A stretch of 64,000 nucleotides of DNA, from positions 2,251,813 through 2,315,812 of the forward strand of contig NZ_JAHWXM010000001.1 in NCBI RefSeq assembly GCF_023091225.1. Direction: 5' to 3'. The position numbers and the translations under genes were made by a program. The notes under the pieces were generated by a model. The model did no database searches and had not been told where the DNA came from. It saw only the letters and a list, made by a program, of their open reading frames with translations. Origin of the DNA: Microbacterium galbinum (GTDB lineage Bacteria > Actinomycetota > Actinomycetes > Actinomycetales > Microbacteriaceae). How positions within the stretch are numbered: position 1 is the stretch's first letter; each line of letters opens with the position of its first letter. Below, piece by piece: positions 4,987 through 19,190 of the stretch.

Positions 4987-5060
4987 TGGGCCCACCAGGA
5001 CTTGAACCTGGGACCTCTTCATTATCAGTGAAGCGCTCTAACCACCTGAGCTATGGGCCC
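4987..5060 (-). tRNA. tRNA-Ile (anticodon GAT)
   Basis: 74-nt cloverleaf on the minus strand. The acceptor is GGGCCC paired with GGGCCC. The anticodon arm is CTTCA-CTGATAA-TGAAG with anticodon GAT, and the T-arm has GGTTCAAGTCC. It is followed by tRNA-Ala. An Ile-Ala tRNA pair near gyrA is the usual actinobacterial arrangement. CCA is not encoded. Confidence 0.96.
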
Positions 5061-5145
5061 GTCAACCTCCGAAACTTTACCGGAGATTCGCCGAAACTCC
5101 CAATCGAGCGCGGGGACCCGGGCGAGTCCCCGCGCTCGTGGGCGG

Positions 5146-6096
5146 TCAGCGGCCCGGACGGATCGTCACGCCACCGGCCGAGAGCGAGACCTCGATGCTG
5201 CGTCGGGCGCTCGCGGACTGCTCGACCCGAGCATCGAGGGACCCGGCGTCGACGCTCTGGGTGATGTCGTACGCGACATCCGGCACCGTGAGATCGACCG
5301 AACCCGCGCTCACCTCGACCGTCGTCCGCGTCGGGGCGGTTCCGGTCAGTTCGACATTGAGTTCTCCGGCCGAGACGCTCAGCGATGCGTCGTCGACGTC
5401 GGCGAGGACGATGTCGGCACGGCCCGCGCTCATGTCCACCGCCAGAGCGGTCGCCGACCCTTCGACATCGAGCGCCCCCGCGCTCACGTCGATGTCGAGA
5501 GCACCGAAGTCACCGACGACGTCGAGGCTTCCGGCGTCGAGCGTCAGGTCGGCGTCGATCGCGTCGGTGCGAAGAGCCTCCGGCAGGGTCAGCACGGCGA
5601 CCTCGCCCTCACGGCCCCAGTCGCCGAACCACCAGTCCCAGCGATTGTCGGGACTGCGCACCACCAGTTCGTCACCGTCGCGCTCGATGGTCCAGTCCGG
5701 GCCACGGCGGTTCGAGATGGAGAGTTCCGCCTGATCGACGTCGCCGAACTCCACACGCATGCTGCTGGCATCGGCGTCGACGGTGAGGGAGTCGATGCCG
5801 TCGACGTCGATGCCCTGCACGGTGTCACCACCCGCGTTGCTCGCGACACTGACGTTGCTCATCGCCCCGATCGCCGCCGTTCCCGCCGTACCGACGAGGG
5901 CGATTCCGCCGACCACCGCGGTGACGATCGCGATCGCGGTCACCCCGCCCGATCGTGCACCGGTACCGGCCGGCCCGCCGGGCGCGGTCGGCGGGGGTGT
6001 GGGCGGAACGGATGCCGTCGGCTGGGGCGGCGCGGATGCCGGCGGGGGAGTGAGCGGGATGTGTCCGCCCTGGTGGTCGTTCTGGTCGGTGCTCAT
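5146..6096 (-). CDS. membrane-anchored DUF4097 beta-repeat protein
   Basis: A 316-aa protein. Residues 1-45 are Pro-rich and cytoplasmic (HIPLTPPPASAPPQPTASV). One membrane segment follows (GGVTAIAIVTAVVGGIALVG, about 50-75). The long outer domain holds short beta repeats of the type LDIDVSAGALDVEGS and LSVSAGELNVELTG, typical of DUF4097 (DUF2807-like) beta-solenoids. Its start overlaps the stop of the response regulator gene by 4 bases, so it is the last gene of a histidine kinase-regulator-DUF4097 operon. Such triads are common in Gram-positives and are usually linked to envelope stress. The role here is inferred from context only. Confidence 0.82.
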   Translation of the reverse strand: MSTDQNDHQGGHIPLTPPPASAPPQPTASVPPTPPPTAPGGPAGTGARSGGVTAIAIVTAVVGGIALVGTAGTAAIGAMSNVSVASNAGGDTVQGIDVDGIDSLTVDADASSMRVEFGDVDQAELSISNRRGPDWTIERDGDELVVRSPDNRWDWWFGDWGREGEVAVLTLPEALRTDAIDADLTLDAGSLDVVGDFGALDIDVSAGALDVEGSATALAVDMSAGRADIVLADVDDASLSVSAGELNVELTGTAPTRTTVEVSAGSVDLTVPDVAYDITQSVDAGSLDARVEQSASARRSIEVSLSAGGVTIRPGR

Positions 6097-13465: not shown

Positions 13466-13993
13466 CTACCCGTAGGTATCGCGCGGGCCCCGCCCTGGAA
13501 CGACTCTGGGACCCCATTTCCAGGAGGGGACGTCCGGTCCGATGAAGCGGAGGTTCTCGACGCCGGCATCCGGATACCGTCGTCCGATCTCGGTGAGGAT
13601 GGTCGCCCGCATGTACTGCAGGTTCTTCGCCCACGCGGTGGAATCGCACTTCACCGTCAGCAGCCCGCGCTCCAGCGAGACCGGTTCCGAGTGCTTCGCG
13701 GTATCGGCACCGGCGAGATCGGCCCATTGCCGCACGAGGTCCTCCCGGGCGAGGGTGATCTGCCAACCGGAGTCGCGGCTGAGCTTGTCGAGCACGGCGC
13801 CGAGGGCACCGGGGTCGCGGCCGGGAGCGAACGGGGCGTTCTCGTCGTCGATCGAGACGCGCTTCTTCTTGCGCCAGTTCTTGGCGCTGGGCTTGAGTCC
13901 TCGCAGACGCAGGTAGGTCGCCACCGTCTCGGGCGCTTCGGGGGCCGGTACCTCGGATGCCGGAAGGGATGCCGGATTCACGATGTCGTTCAT
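13466..13993 (-). CDS. DUF721 protein, DciA-like
   Basis: A 175-aa protein starting at ATG 13993 (MNDIVNPASLPASEV). Residues 22-60 form a charged linker with LRGLKPSAKNWRKKKR. Residues about 75-160 contain the DUF721 core: LDKLSRDSGW, LVRQWADLAGADTAKHSEPV, LTVKCDSTAWAKNLQYM and GRRYPDAGVENLRFIGP. DUF721 proteins include DciA, the helicase loader/operator in bacteria without DnaC, and lie next to recF in Actinobacteria. The start overlaps the recF stop by 4 bases. DciA activity is inferred from family and place. Confidence 0.85.
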   Translation of the reverse strand: MNDIVNPASLPASEVPAPEAPETVATYLRLRGLKPSAKNWRKKKRVSIDDENAPFAPGRDPGALGAVLDKLSRDSGWQITLAREDLVRQWADLAGADTAKHSEPVSLERGLLTVKCDSTAWAKNLQYMRATILTEIGRRYPDAGVENLRFIGPDVPSWKWGPRVVPGRGPRDTYG

Positions 13994-15168
13994 TCGTCGC
14001 CCCCCGACCGCTCGTCGCTGATGGTTCCCGCGGTGATCCGCACGACGTGCGCATGCAGCACCTCGGGGATATCCTCCTCCACGGCCGCGGTCACCACCAC
14101 CTGCTCGTAGCCCGCGGTGAGCGCAGCGAGCCGCTGACGACGGTCGGCATCGAGCTCGGCGAAGACGTCGTCGAGGATCAGCACCGGGTCGCCGGCCGGG
14201 GATTCGCTGCGCAGCAGCTCGGCCGAGGCGAGACGCAGCGCGAGCGCGACGGACCAGGATTCGCCGTGCGAGGCGTAGCCCTTCACCGGGAGCGAGCGGA
14301 CGCGCAGCACCAGATCGTCTCGATGCGGACCCGTCAGCGTCAGTCCCCGGTCGAGCTCGTTCGAGCGCTTCGACGCGAGCGACGCGCGGAACTGCTCGGC
14401 GACGGCCGCCGGCGTCACGGCATCCTCGGGCGCGGTGGCGGCATCGTCTTCGTCTTCTTCGGGATCCCCGCCGCGGATCGACAGCGCCCACTCGAGCTGG
14501 GGTCGATGATCGGCGCCCGCGATCGCGGCGTACGCATCGGCGACCGGCTGCTGCAGGTCGTTGGCCAGGCGCTGGCGCGCGACGATGATCTCGGAGCCGA
14601 GCGCGACCAGCTTGTCGTCCCAGACGTCGAGAGTGCTCAGGCCCTCACCTCGGATGCCGCGGGCCCGGGCCGACTTCAGCAGCGCGTTGCGCTGCTTGAG
14701 CACACGGTCGTAGTCCGCGAGCACGGCGGCGAGGCGAGGCGTGCGCTGGATGAGCAGCTGGTCGACGAAACGGCGGCGCGACGACGGGTCGCCACGCACG
14801 ATCTGAAGATCCTCCGGGGCGAAGAGCACGACGTGCGCGTAACGCGGCAGCTCGTTGGTCTTCGACGGGGATCCGTTGATGCGCGCCTTGTTCGAGCCCT
14901 GCCGATTCACCTGGACCTCGGCGAGCACCTTACGCTCCCCGTGCGAGAGTCGCGCGCGGATGATCGCGAACTCCTGTCCGTCGCGCACCATGGGGGCGTC
15001 GGACGAGACCCGGTGCGAGCCCAGCGTGGCGAGGAAGACCACGGCTTCGGCGAGATTCGTCTTTCCCTGCCCGTTCCGGCCGACCAGGACGTTCGGTCCG
15101 CGGTGCAGAGCGAGTTCGGCGGTCGCGTAATTGCGGAAATCCACCAGACTCAGATGCTCCACGATCAC
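13990..15168 (-). CDS. recF: DNA replication and repair protein RecF
   Basis: SMC-like ATPase that helps load RecA at gaps with RecOR. The 392-aa protein begins MIVEHLSLVDFRNYATAEL, with Walker A GRNGQGKTNLAEAV at residues about 33-46. The signature region is YASHGESWSVALALRLA, and the Walker B/D-loop is ILDDVFAELDADRR. The end is Gly/Asp-rich. It overlaps the DUF721 gene by 4 bases. Upstream, instead of dnaN directly, lie the amidase and cohesin genes in the same direction, so recF may be read from a promoter in 15169-15258 or by read-through. Confidence 0.97.
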   Translation of the reverse strand: MIVEHLSLVDFRNYATAELALHRGPNVLVGRNGQGKTNLAEAVVFLATLGSHRVSSDAPMVRDGQEFAIIRARLSHGERKVLAEVQVNRQGSNKARINGSPSKTNELPRYAHVVLFAPEDLQIVRGDPSSRRRFVDQLLIQRTPRLAAVLADYDRVLKQRNALLKSARARGIRGEGLSTLDVWDDKLVALGSEIIVARQRLANDLQQPVADAYAAIAGADHRPQLEWALSIRGGDPEEDEDDAATAPEDAVTPAAVAEQFRASLASKRSNELDRGLTLTGPHRDDLVLRVRSLPVKGYASHGESWSVALALRLASAELLRSESPAGDPVLILDDVFAELDADRRQRLAALTAGYEQVVVTAAVEEDIPEVLHAHVVRITAGTISDERSGGDE

Positions 15169-15258
15169 GGAGTCAGCCTACCTTCGGGGTCGGACATCTT
15201 CCCCGGCGGAGCCGGACCGGCGACTGCCCGAGCTGTTCGAGCAGTCGCCGGTCGTGGA

Positions 15259-17124
15259 TCACGGCAGCGGGCCGTAGAGCGACGGCGCCGTGCGGGCATC
15301 CGTCGCCTGCTCGAACGCGTACGCCAGACCGAGGAGGGTTCCCTCGTCGAAGTCGCGTCCGAGGAACTCGAGGTTCACGCCGCTGCCGGGCAGCGTCTCA
15401 CCCGCGATCGTCTGCCCCATCGGCACGGTGACCGACGGCATCCCGGTGTTCGGGCTCAGCCGCATGTTGGTCCCCTGGGTCCCGTAGGCGTTCGTGCTCG
15501 GATAGACGATCGCGTCGAGGTCGAGATCCTCCATCATCTGCGTCACGAGCGTCTTGCCGGCCGCGAGCTGCACGGTGTGCGTACCGGTCTCGCCCGCCCA
15601 GCCCTGGTAGGTCGCTTCGGTGACCGCATTGCGCGCGACGTAGATCGACCGCCGCGAGGTGACGAAGCTGTTCGTCGCGAGGATGTCGGTGAGAGTGCGC
15701 GCCTCGACATCGGGGCCGAGATGCGTGGCGATGTACTCGTCGAGATCGTGGAGGAACTCGTTCGTCGACCCGGAGCCCTCGTTCAGAACGGCGGAGAACC
15801 CGGACGGAGGAGTGATCGGCACCACGGTCGCGCCCTGCGCGGTCAGCGCTGCGGTCGCCTCGGAGAAGAGTCGCACGGTGCCGGCGTTGGTTCCCACCAT
15901 CGACGAGACGTAGCCGATCCGCGCGCCCTGGAGCGCATCCGTGTCGAGGAACGAGGTGTACGACTCGGGCACGAGGCCCTCCTGTCGTGCGGTGACGGGA
16001 TCGGCGTCATCGACTCCCACCACCGCATCCAGAGCGACGGCGGCATCGATGACGGAGCGAGCCATCGGCCCACCGGTGTCCTGCGAGAGAGCCAGCGGGA
16101 TGATGCCGTCGCGGCTGGCCAGACCCACCGTGGGGCGGACACCGACGAGCTGGTTGTACGACGACGGGACACGGATCGACCCGCCCGTGTCGGTGCCGAA
16201 GCCGATGCCCGCGAGGTTCGCGGAGATCGCGGCTCCCGTGCCACCGCTGGATCCGCCGGCCGTCCGGGTCGTGTCGTACGGGCTCGCCACGAGTGACGTC
16301 GCTCCCGGCTCCTGGAACGAGGAGAACTCCGAGACGAATCCGTAGGCGAACTCGTCGAGGCTGGCCTTCGCGAGGATCACGGCGCCGTCGCTGCGGAGTC
16401 CGCGCACCATCGACGCGTCGGTCGCGGTCTGGTTCTCGTTCCAGCAGGCGCATCCACCGGTGGTGACCATGTCGACCGTGTCGTAGTTGTCCTTCAGCGC
16501 GATCGGCACGCCCAGCAGCATGCTCGTCATGCCGTCGGATGCTCGGATCTCGTCGGCCGCAGCCGCATCGGCGAGGGCCTTCTGGTTCACCGTGATGATC
16601 GAGTTGAGCGGACGGCTTCCGCCGGGCACGACCGTGCGGTCGTACGCGGCGATCCGGTCGAGGTATTCCTGCGTGATGCTCTGGGAGGTCGCGACTCCCG
16701 CATTCATCGCCGCCTGCATGTCGATCACGGATGCTTCGACGAGCTCGAAGGGACCGTCGTCGTAGATGATCCGCTGCGAGAGATCGGCGAGATCGAGGAT
16801 CGTGAGCTCGCCGTCGGCATCGGTATCGAGGACGGCCACTCGGGACCAGTCCGGCGACGACGCCGTGAGGCCGAGGGATTCGGCGGCGACGGACAGATCC
16901 GCGGCCGTCACCATCTCGTCACCGGTCACGTCGAGCTCGCTGTAGTACGGCGGGAGGCTGACGGTCGCCGGTGCCGCCGCCGTCGCTGCTCCGCTCGCCA
17001 TCCCGGCCGCGACGATCGTGGAACCCACGACCGAGACGGCGGCGACGATCCGCAGGGTGGTCTTCTTCACAGTGGTGTCTCTCCTGGTTCTCGGCTTCTC
17101 TGCTCGGGTGTCGTGCGCGGTCAT
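15259..17124 (-). CDS. secreted amidase-signature enzyme with N-terminal dockerin-like module
   Basis: A 621-aa protein with a hydrophobic export segment at about 23-50 (TLRIVAAVSVVGSTIVAAGM). Residues 64-120 hold two Ca-binding dockerin-type loops: D65-T67-D69-D76 and D100-D102-D104-D111, each followed by a helix (LSVAAESLGL, LADLSQRII). The amidase-signature domain runs from about 125 to 615. Its catalytic triad is intact: Lys211 in VPIALKDN, cis-Ser292 in AGGSSGGTG and nucleophile Ser316 in TDTGGSIRVP. The 24-residue spacing of the serines is as in known amidases. It is not GatA: it is exported, has a dockerin and lacks gatB/gatC neighbours. Its ATG overlaps the stop of the cohesin gene by 4 bases, so the two are co-translated. 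The substrate is unknown; amides of wall peptides or plant/soil compounds are possible. Confidence 0.88.
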   Translation of the reverse strand: MTAHDTRAEKPRTRRDTTVKKTTLRIVAAVSVVGSTIVAAGMASGAATAAAPATVSLPPYYSELDVTGDEMVTAADLSVAAESLGLTASSPDWSRVAVLDTDADGELTILDLADLSQRIIYDDGPFELVEASVIDMQAAMNAGVATSQSITQEYLDRIAAYDRTVVPGGSRPLNSIITVNQKALADAAAADEIRASDGMTSMLLGVPIALKDNYDTVDMVTTGGCACWNENQTATDASMVRGLRSDGAVILAKASLDEFAYGFVSEFSSFQEPGATSLVASPYDTTRTAGGSSGGTGAAISANLAGIGFGTDTGGSIRVPSSYNQLVGVRPTVGLASRDGIIPLALSQDTGGPMARSVIDAAVALDAVVGVDDADPVTARQEGLVPESYTSFLDTDALQGARIGYVSSMVGTNAGTVRLFSEATAALTAQGATVVPITPPSGFSAVLNEGSGSTNEFLHDLDEYIATHLGPDVEARTLTDILATNSFVTSRRSIYVARNAVTEATYQGWAGETGTHTVQLAAGKTLVTQMMEDLDLDAIVYPSTNAYGTQGTNMRLSPNTGMPSVTVPMGQTIAGETLPGSGVNLEFLGRDFDEGTLLGLAYAFEQATDARTAPSLYGPLP

Positions 17125-17885
17125 CGGGTCCTCCGTCGAACGGCGATGACGGTGCCCGACGCGATGGCGGCGATGGCTCCCGCACCGAGGATCAGCCAGG
17201 GTGCGGCATCCGCGCCCGTGACGGCGAGCGAGCCGTCCGTCGTCGTGCCCGATCCGGAACCGGAACCCGAACCCGATCCGGTGTCGGGATCGCCGCCATC
17301 GGAGCCACCATCGGAGCCTCCGTCACCGGGCCCCGGCTCGGTGTCCTCATCGGCGGTGATCTCCACCGTCGTCGACGTGCCCGGCGCGTCGGAATCGACC
17401 GTCGACGATGCGGTGCTCGAGTCGACGATGCGTCCGTTCGCGATGTCGAGCGAGGCGTCGCCCGCCTCGAGTGCGGTGAAGGTGAGTGTGACCAGGGTCT
17501 GCGTGCCGGTCAGACCGGGTGAGGTGCCGAGCCGGGTCGCGGCGACCGCGATCTCACTGCCCGAGTCGGTCGCCGATCCGAAGCCGCCGGTCGGGAGGAT
17601 CTCGCTGTCGGCGACGAACGCGAGGAGGTCGGGGTCGTAGGCGATGTCGAGCTCGTACGCGTAGGCGTCGACCAGGCCGGTGAACACCGCGCTGACGGTG
17701 ATCGTGTCACCGACGGACACCGACGTCGGAGCGGCGGTGAGGGTGGCGGTTTCGTAGGAGTCGGGCACCACCACGGCCGAGGCGGGTGATGCCGCACCGA
17801 ACGCGAGGAGCGTCGCGGCCGTGAATGCGACGCCGGATGCGAGCGCTCGCAACCGGCGGAATCGGGCAGGGGGGATCTCGGGCAT
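17121..17885 (-). CDS. wall-anchored cohesin-domain protein
   Basis: A 254-aa protein. The signal peptide is at 1-37 (basic MPEIPPARFRRLR, hydrophobic core, cut after ASPASA). Residues about 45-175 have cohesin features: VSVGDTITVSAVFTG, YAYELDIAYDPDLLAFVADS, VAATRLGTSPGLTG and LVTLTFTALEAGDASLDI. A Gly/Ser/Asp linker (GDGGSDGGSDGG, then GSGSGSGSGSG) leads to a sortase-type signal: LAVTG at 220-224, a membrane span and RRRTR. The domain would be displayed on the cell surface. It is the first gene of a two-gene unit with the dockerin amidase and starts 159 bases after the dnaN stop. It would hold the amidase on the wall by cohesin-dockerin pairing; this is inferred, since no binding is shown by sequence alone. 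Confidence 0.86.
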   Translation of the reverse strand: MPEIPPARFRRLRALASGVAFTAATLLAFGAASPASAVVVPDSYETATLTAAPTSVSVGDTITVSAVFTGLVDAYAYELDIAYDPDLLAFVADSEILPTGGFGSATDSGSEIAVAATRLGTSPGLTGTQTLVTLTFTALEAGDASLDIANGRIVDSSTASSTVDSDAPGTSTTVEITADEDTEPGPGDGGSDGGSDGGDPDTGSGSGSGSGSGTTTDGSLAVTGADAAPWLILGAGAIAAIASGTVIAVRRRTR

Positions 17886-18001
17886 GCGGAGCGTCTTTCG
17901 TCTGGAGAGACGAGCTCGGCTGCACGGCTACGCGGAGCAGCCGTGCTCAGGGGGTACGGCTGACTCTCGCAGTCGGGTGTTTCGCATTCTGAGCGCTATG
18001 G

Positions 18002-18024
18002 TTTCCGGCGCGTAACGGCCGGAA
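18002..18024 (-). terminator. hairpin after dnaN
   Basis: Arms TTCCGGC (18003-18009) and GCCGGAA (18018-18024), 21 bases past the dnaN stop and ahead of the cohesin gene. The stem is short and there is no T-run, so strength is uncertain. Confidence 0.45.
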
Positions 18025-18044
18025 CCGGGGCTCAGCGCAGGGGC

Positions 18045-19190
18045 TCAGCGCAGCAGGAGGTTCGGCTGCAGGAGGTACTTGAACGAGTCGAGACCCGCCT
18101 GGTCGACCGAGGTCTGGCTCGTGATCAGCACCGGGCTGAGCTTGTTGGCGTTGTCGCTCGAGGTGAACGTGACGCGCACGAACTCGCTCTTCACGGCTCC
18201 GAGCGCCTCGATCAGGTACTGCGGGTTGAGGCCGAGCACGACCTCTTCGCCACCGGAGAGGATCGCGTCGACCGACTCGGAGGCGCGAGCGTGCTCGCTG
18301 CCCGAGGCATCCATCGTCACGCTGTCGCTCGAGAACGTGAACCGCAGCGGAGCCGCGCGATCGAGCACGAGGGCGACACGACGCACGGCCTCGATGAGGT
18401 CGGCGGTGTTGACGACCGCGTAGTGGTCGGTCTGCTCGGGGAACAGGCGGCGCACGGGCGGGAAGTTGCCCTTGATCAGCAACGAGGTGACGGTCTTGTT
18501 CCCCGCGGTGAACGCGATGATCTCGCGGTCGCCGGCACCCGAGAACGCGATCTGGATGGTTCCGGCGTGGCCGAAGGTCTTCCCGACCTCGACGAGCGTG
18601 CGGGCGGGGACGAGCGCGGTCTGATCCCCAGCGGATTCGCCGTCCCACGGCACGTCGCGGAGCGATACGCGGTAGCGGTCGGTCGCGACGAGACTCAGAC
18701 TCTGGCCCGATACCTCGAGCTGCACACCCGTGAGAACCGGGGTGACGTCGTCACGCGAAGCGGCGAAGCCGACCTGGGCGATCGCCGTGCCGAAGTCGTC
18801 GGCCGGGACGACACCGGAGGAGCCGGCGACCTCGGGGATCGACGGGTACTCCTCGACGGGCATGGCCGCGAGGGTGAATCGGGCGGATCCGCAGGTGACC
18901 GTGATGCCGCCGTCTTCCTCGACCGCGATCTCGATCGGAGCGTTCGGCAGACGGCTGGCGATGTCGGAGAGCAGACGGCCGTGCACGAGGATCGTGCCGG
19001 GGGTGTCGACGGTGGCCTCGATCGTGGTGCGTGCGGATGCCTCGTAGTCGAAGGCCGAGAGGGTCAGCCCTGAACCGTCCGCCTCGATCAGCACTCCGGC
19101 GAGGATCGGCTGCGGGTTGCGCTGCGGCAGAAGCTTGACGACGAACGACACTGCCTCGCTGAAGACATCGCGGTTGACCTGAAACCTCAC
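18045..19190 (-). CDS. dnaN: DNA polymerase III beta subunit (sliding clamp)
   Basis: Ring-shaped processivity clamp. The 381-aa protein starts MRFQVNRDVFSEAVSFVVKL and has three DnaN domains. Recognisable parts are LLPQRNPQPILAGVLIEADG, GGITVTCGSARFTL, DRYRVSLRD and the C-terminal KYLLQPNLLLR strand that lines the peptide-binding pocket. It lies downstream of dnaA across the oriC region, both on the minus strand, in the usual dnaA-oriC-dnaN order. Confidence 0.98.
   Translation of the reverse strand: MRFQVNRDVFSEAVSFVVKLLPQRNPQPILAGVLIEADGSGLTLSAFDYEASARTTIEATVDTPGTILVHGRLLSDIASRLPNAPIEIAVEEDGGITVTCGSARFTLAAMPVEEYPSIPEVAGSSGVVPADDFGTAIAQVGFAASRDDVTPVLTGVQLEVSGQSLSLVATDRYRVSLRDVPWDGESAGDQTALVPARTLVEVGKTFGHAGTIQIAFSGAGDREIIAFTAGNKTVTSLLIKGNFPPVRRLFPEQTDHYAVVNTADLIEAVRRVALVLDRAAPLRFTFSSDSVTMDASGSEHARASESVDAILSGGEEVVLGLNPQYLIEALGAVKSEFVRVTFTSSDNANKLSPVLITSQTSVDQAGLDSFKYLLQPNLLLR

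Follow-up and report, generated by a model that had tools for sequence, protein, structure and literature searches.

Cohesin-dockerin pairs are usually discussed as parts of the cellulosomes of anaerobes, and cellulosomes anchor by SLH. Among the closest known systems is the cellulosome assembly, from which cohesin-dockerin complexes have been solved (1ohz, 3ul4 with OlpA, and 2b59). In Clostridium perfringens, non-cellulosomal cohesins (2vo8, 2jh2 and 2w1n) are modules within a glycoside hydrolase, according to the titles of their structure records. A review by Peer and others from 2009 reportedly covers non-cellulosomal cohesins and dockerins in three domains of life and may list actinobacterial cases. 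Here we describe two overlapping genes in a stretch of 64,000 nucleotides of Microbacterium galbinum (contig NZ_JAHWXM010000001.1; hereafter the window), the first encoding a cohesin protein with a sortase sorting signal and the second a dockerin-amidase with an export segment. We read the pair, with a probability of roughly three in four, as a wall display of one socket and one enzyme, Ca-dependent and translationally coupled. This reading builds on domains, intact residues, gene overlap, pair conservation, natural fusions and the joint model of a relative, all computed here; from the families we infer Ca-dependent binding and wall attachment, and activity as well.

To collect relatives, we aligned the dockerin-amidase junction and scanned GTDB genomes with it. 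This gave at least 346 relatives, of which the best 80 were kept as named loci, a set picked by the dockerin-amidase and not a random sample. The separate protein searches for relatives and fusions scored only the candidates sharing most words, and one of them listed 120 of 310 matches.

The cohesin gene (17121-17885, minus strand) encodes 254 amino acids (aa). Its domain at residues 53-174 (17364-17729) matches PF00963 with an E-value of 4.4e-10 and 40.4 bits, above the cut-off of 24.1. It is followed by an acidic linker rich in Gly, Ser and Asp, by LAVTG at residues 220-224 (17214-17228), a hydrophobic stretch and the basic tail RRRTR. Together with the signal peptide, assigned by eye, this completes the layout of a sortase substrate, as the earlier note on this DNA had described it. 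That note had also held that a profile search placing residues 45-175 in another family would refute the idea; both the profile and a fold search with the predicted model of a relative put the domain among cohesins, with the cohesin beta-sandwich fold. The sequence search of the Protein Data Bank (PDB) returned matches to the Gly/Ser linker and weak ones, the top cohesin being 3l8q (E 0.2). PF00963 is matched at E <= 0.001 by 65 of 74 cohesin cores (the window and 73 relatives, leaving out the locus of Demequina sediminis, L134), and nine have no match. The Pfam model is insensitive: at this threshold it misses the amidase-adjacent cohesins of four genomes (G113, G572, G360 and G561), which a profile built in this analysis detects. 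In L134, the cohesin gene lies in two frames (about 5043-5851), through a frameshift or a sequencing error. Members of this cohesin family strongly conserve the motif TRLGTSPGLxG (alignment A5; residues 117-127 in the window cohesin), a candidate for dockerin contact.

Each of the 71 cohesins encoded upstream at the named loci carries LxxTG, beginning with LA in 57, LP in 6, LS in 5, and LG, LV and LT in one each. Class E sortases favour LAxTG signals. Two sortases are encoded in the genome: a class E enzyme with 232.7 bits (cut-off 160) and a class F enzyme with 169.6 bits (cut-off 166).

The dockerin-amidase gene (15259-17124, minus strand), defined by its open reading frame and domain matches, encodes 621 aa arranged as export segment, dockerin and amidase. 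The dockerin (residues 65-119, 16768-16932) matches PF00404 (Dockerin_1) with 20.8 bits in the whole protein, under the cut-off of 22.9, with 24.6 in the isolated segment and 25 in the genome search; 69 of 72 dockerin segments (the window and 71 relatives) match it at E <= 0.01. It contains two duplicated 12-residue Ca loops, D65-D76 (16897-16932) and D100-D111 (16792-16827). The amidase (residues 150-549, 15478-16677) matches PF01425 (E 4.1e-77) with an intact triad K211/S292/S316. The placement of the loops and triad in the earlier note is borne out by an alignment of 75 proteins, the window plus 74 of the 80 loci (L117, L166, L175, L177, L182 and L187 could not be parsed). D65, D69, D76, D100, D111, K211, S292 and S316 are invariant in 75/75, so that positions 1, 5 and 12 of loop 1 and 1 and 12 of loop 2 are constant; D102 and D104 are each retained in 73/75.

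The stop codon of the cohesin gene and the start of the amidase gene form an ATGA overlap (17121-17124), which confirms the four shared bases first noted from the reading frames, and GGAGG precedes the ATG at a distance of five bases. The four-base overlap between the cohesin stop and an ATG (58) or GTG (7) of the amidase frame recurs in 65 of 65 parsed loci; six of the 71 two-gene loci went unparsed, the regular expression having missed the amidase. An alternative GTG start at 17068-17070 would give 603 aa, and some relatives named by the National Center for Biotechnology Information (NCBI) have 603-605 aa (P0044, with 603 aa, and others). The upstream start is preferred because the four-base overlap is conserved. 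Translational coupling of the two genes is the best reading of this arrangement. Scanning 15150-18200 for promoters and terminators gave no match; an inverted repeat just past the amidase stop (15215-15253) is a self-complementary match with no T run and was not called a terminator.

In the whole genome (3.57 megabases), the profile search returned one cohesin match at E <= 0.001, at this locus, and one dockerin match, on the amidase. That both fall on this locus is more than chance. The search for further dockerin genes proposed in the earlier note yielded only this one, and its idea of a minimal, single-enzyme version of the cohesin-dockerin system agrees with the profile matches. The genome search thus gave one cohesin and not a multi-cohesin scaffoldin, and a sole dockerin on an amidase and not several dockerin enzymes including glycoside hydrolases, as in a cellulosome.

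We propose that the cohesin protein would be exported and that a sortase, probably this genome's class E enzyme, would link it to the wall by way of LAVTG. The overlapping amidase gene would be translated in step with the cohesin gene and its product exported separately. The Ca-loaded dockerin would then dock on the cohesin, holding the amidase on the wall with no covalent link, and a flexible hinge past the dockerin would let the amidase reach its substrate. The Ser-Ser-Lys amidase, which is PAM-like, would probably strip amide groups off small peptides or similar compounds at the cell surface, the substrate being the least certain step.

The pair recurs far beyond the window. In six of the 80 named loci (L121, L126, L137, L149, L154 and L167), the contig runs out immediately before the amidase on its upstream side. 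A cohesin is present at all the other 74, directly upstream in 71, downstream in one (L119, Isoptericola) and fused in two. Among others, these loci come from Microbacterium, Curtobacterium, Leifsonia, Herbiconiux, Agreia, Mycetocola, Frigoribacterium, Okibacterium, Cellulosimicrobium, Isoptericola, Cellulomonas, Oerskovia, Georgenia, Oceanitalea and Demequina, and from a metagenome-assembled genome (MAG) of Actinomyces. A Pfam cohesin occurs in 35 of 295 Microbacterium genomes, once in each, and 34 of the 35 adjoin a dockerin-amidase; the dockerin of G153 is partly deleted, and the match in G240 is below the cut-off. Of the 295 genomes, 53 match the junction profile, so that the genus carries the pair only in patches; 48 of the 53 have an adjacent or fused cohesin, and the other five are two remnants, one dockerin-less amidase and two contig ends (G171, locus L214, and G266). 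In a sample of the order, 20 of 396 genomes and 11 of 109 genera carry the dockerin-amidase, five of the 20 being Microbacterium. A cohesin is adjacent or fused in 19 of these 20, by coordinates or by our own profile; in G670, the amidase is at a contig end and the cohesin match is on another contig. The Pfam cohesin model alone recovers 16 of the 20. Sub-cut-off Pfam cohesin matches in G240 (L092) and G539 (L225) were not confirmed by our own profile. The pair is one member of a widespread, coupled cohesin-LxxTG/dockerin-amidase system in several actinobacterial families. A clustering of flanking reading frames of at least 150 aa at the 80 loci found, apart from the pair and the frames overlapping it, no cluster beyond 13/80. 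This comparison is weak, since many frames are lumped together in the largest cluster, where a neighbour could go unseen.

The recurrence of the pair bears on the view that the dockerin-like region serves the amidase only as a Ca-stabilised spacer, the cohesin being an unrelated surface protein or adhesin expressed alongside. Such a view would fit the EF-hand models that also match many of the segments (EF-hand_7, 36/72), as well as two Microbacterium genomes (G290 and G071) which suggest that a dockerin need not have a partner. Its probability is nevertheless very low, given the constant pairing across families, in either gene order, as fusions of both orders and in a joint model. In both genomes, the dockerin sits at the C-terminus of an S8 subtilase roughly 1,400 aa long (L105 and L108) and is an orphan, in that a Pfam cohesin search of the genome found nothing. 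For a further frame of 1,241 aa in G137 (L104), the dockerin is the sole Pfam match at E <= 0.01.

Natural fusions join the same modules in one chain. They run cohesin-dockerin-amidase in Microbacterium sp. 2FI (L147) and in G243 (L209), and dockerin-amidase-cohesin in a Nocardioides MAG (L176) and in G481 (L224), the last with LAVTG at its end. Searching with the cohesin part of L147 against proteins of similar total length brought up another 12 chains with the order cohesin-dockerin-amidase (P0160-P0171, 755-777 aa long), one of them from Microbacterium hominis. Three other loci (L222, L223 and L226) have the cohesin gene after the amidase gene, L226 apparently being from the same genome as L119. 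Between cohesin and dockerin, P0160-P0171 carry the linker LPGKRHAASKA and then RHxGW, which is basic and strikingly conserved, seemingly beyond the need of a passive linker.

AlphaFold2 gave a predicted template modelling score (pTM) of 0.77 for the natural cohesin-linker-dockerin chain of a relative, which by estimate implies a placed dockerin. The structure prediction that the earlier note had called for, made in this form on the chain of a relative, is consistent with docking. Folding used alignments A3 and A4, in which the rows of P0160-P0171 keep the fused modules in register. Alignment A2 was discarded since its cohesin rows fell on the GSSGG motif of the amidase; reading through the cohesin stop to gain extra joined rows was set aside, since both parts share a frame in just the two natural fusions (2 of the 68 loci parsed, out of 74). 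The VIA-align list for the short model was filled by one domain, contained no dockerin chain and is uninformative on the dockerin. Across 65 loci, the partial correlation of cohesin with dockerin distances given the amidase is 0.23, with none of 2000 label permutations as high, and that of cohesin with amidase distances given the dockerin is larger (0.53); both ignore phylogeny.

Several observations weigh against the proposed display. The LAVTG signal scores 19.7 bits with NCBIfam NF058582, missing its cut-off of 27, and the sorting-signal model TIGR01167 gives 12.6 bits, under 15.9. Position 3 of dockerin Ca loops is usually Asn or Asp, and in loop 1 this ligand position is Thr in 74/75. The amidase equivalog PRK08137 (NF006006) gives 359.3 bits and misses its cut-off of 534. 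The structure models are those of a relative's chain, with docking read from the pTM only. The downstream cohesin of L119 has no anchor or sorting signal, and seven diverged cohesins of a second type (L102, L103, L107, L211, L212, L220 and L221) end in a transmembrane stretch and a basic tail, not in LxxTG. Finally, neither L147 nor P0160-P0171 has an LxxTG tail, and therefore the domain pair cannot serve sortase anchoring in these proteins; such fusions with no sorting signal speak against tethering as the sole role.

The fusions could mean that cohesin-dockerin binding chiefly stabilises, orients or cross-links the enzyme, anchoring being secondary and confined to some lineages. The modules are both retained despite their covalent joining, the LAVTG tail of the dockerin-amidase-cohesin chain of L224 makes a tether redundant, and the type of anchor varies between LxxTG, a transmembrane tail and none. 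We consider this unlikely as the chief function, since the sorting motif is retained without exception in the 71 upstream cohesins and since three of the 12 fusions (P0160, P0165 and P0170) have dockerins that, by eye, look shortened, as expected if non-covalent binding became redundant. In addition, two large, secreted, dockerin-less amidases carry a sorting signal of their own: that of L215 (G183) with LGVTG and an N-terminal part lacking a Pfam assignment, and that of L218 (the second match in G360) with LPSTG. Because of these enzymes and of the sorting signals, tethering is supported as a main role, as far as sequence can tell, and wall display by a single socket is the reading retained.

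The fold and triad of the amidase indicate amide hydrolysis. The closest solved structure is 1m21, the peptide amidase PAM, and since the enzyme is most like PAM a peptide-amide substrate is probable; PAM-like specificity for peptide amides is our best guess, although PRK08137 falls short of its cut-off. The display system could also work as described with a substrate that is a non-peptide amide, for instance indole-3-acetamide or some other amide from plants or soil. This proposal departs from ours in the substrate only, so that the odds of the two overlap. The indoleacetamide hydrolase model PRK07488 matches with 221.5 bits, though under its cut-off of 532, and several carrier genera are plant-associated. 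We regard a non-peptide substrate as doubtful, though less improbable than a mainly stabilising function.

The pair lies between recF (13990-15168) and dnaN (18045-19190), and the earlier note had seen in this an insertion into a conserved unit. In the relative G001, the aligned flanks are 58 base pairs (bp) apart, compared with 2,845 bp in the window (15197-18041), where the alignment breaks off after 15196 and picks up again at 18042. The pair is thus indeed absent between these flanks in G001; this empty site could reflect either loss in G001 or gain in the line of the window. The proposed search in other Microbacteriaceae did find the pair there and beyond the family, but recF and dnaN flank it in just four of the 80 named loci (L109 of M. 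galbinum, L110, L111 and L113), and hence the position in the replication block is incidental to the system and local only. The four form one branch of the amidase tree (support 100/99). The same placement occurs in three further Microbacterium genomes (G075, G128 and G166), which are not part of that tree, and G211 has a truncated remnant at this site (L210), a case of loss. The guanine-cytosine content of the cohesin and dockerin-amidase genes (0.71 and 0.68) is similar to the 0.68 of the window. In the tree of 68 amidases, the taxonomic families require 7 changes where the minimum is 6, which fits mostly vertical descent. Microbacterium, however, is spread over at least three branches, so that old duplications, or transfers between members of the order, have probably played a part as well.

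Three genomes (G136, G245 and G285) carry both types of pair, the one with LxxTG and the one with the transmembrane tail. The remnants in G211 and G138 (L213) are truncated at the 5′ end and have lost the first Ca loop and any cohesin. In G153 (L088), cohesin and amidase share a reading frame, no sorting signal separates them, and the dockerin is short by about 20 residues; this may be a copy in decay or an error of sequencing.

A literature search on cohesins, dockerins and sortases in these actinobacteria, judged on titles and the openings of abstracts, found no description of the pair, and the passages available of one further article do not treat it (PMC5817068). In the parts available of two genome studies, dockerins and cohesins are reported absent from three Cellulomonas genomes (PMC3544764), and likewise from the genome of Cellulosimicrobium cellulans F16 (PMC4562250). 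The two C. cellulans genomes with a dockerin-amidase found here (L126, at a contig end, and L186, with a cohesin) differ from F16. According to the available passages of a 2024 census covering over 305,000 genomes, its criteria were a protein bearing two or more cohesins together with a glycoside hydrolase that has a dockerin (PMC11557425), and by these criteria the present systems would fall outside it. The spread of this clamp has thus probably been underestimated so far, because the two studies report related genomes to lack both domains and the census, in those passages, excludes single-cohesin systems. We tentatively suggest that the pairs belong to an old non-cellulosomal cohesin-dockerin class of Micrococcales and some other actinobacteria, a Ca-dependent, detachable anchor for single enzymes that may occur as double pairs and as fusions both ways. 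A coupled pair of one socket and one non-carbohydrate enzyme would show the clamp at its simplest, and would offer small natural cohesin-dockerin pairs for protein display.

Among described systems, the 'nonSLH-anchoring' and 'single-cohesin' classes of the census, in the passages available, share with the window the category of a cohesin protein with an LPxTG signal (PMC11557425). PAM of Stenotrophomonas maltophilia (1m21, 1m22 and 5ac3) corresponds to the amidase part only, as the PDB match spans no more of the protein. The amidases of L218 and L215, from the same order, are likewise secreted with a predicted wall anchor; unlike in the window pair, the anchor is in the same chain, and no dockerin and no neighbouring cohesin were found at these loci. 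Compared with the C. perfringens proteins, in which the cohesin is part of the enzyme, the cohesin here is on a separate protein with a sorting signal and the dockerin is on an amidase. In contrast to a cellulosome, the window pair comprises one cohesin and one dockerin enzyme, includes no glycoside hydrolase, carries a sortase signal and resides in an actinobacterial host.

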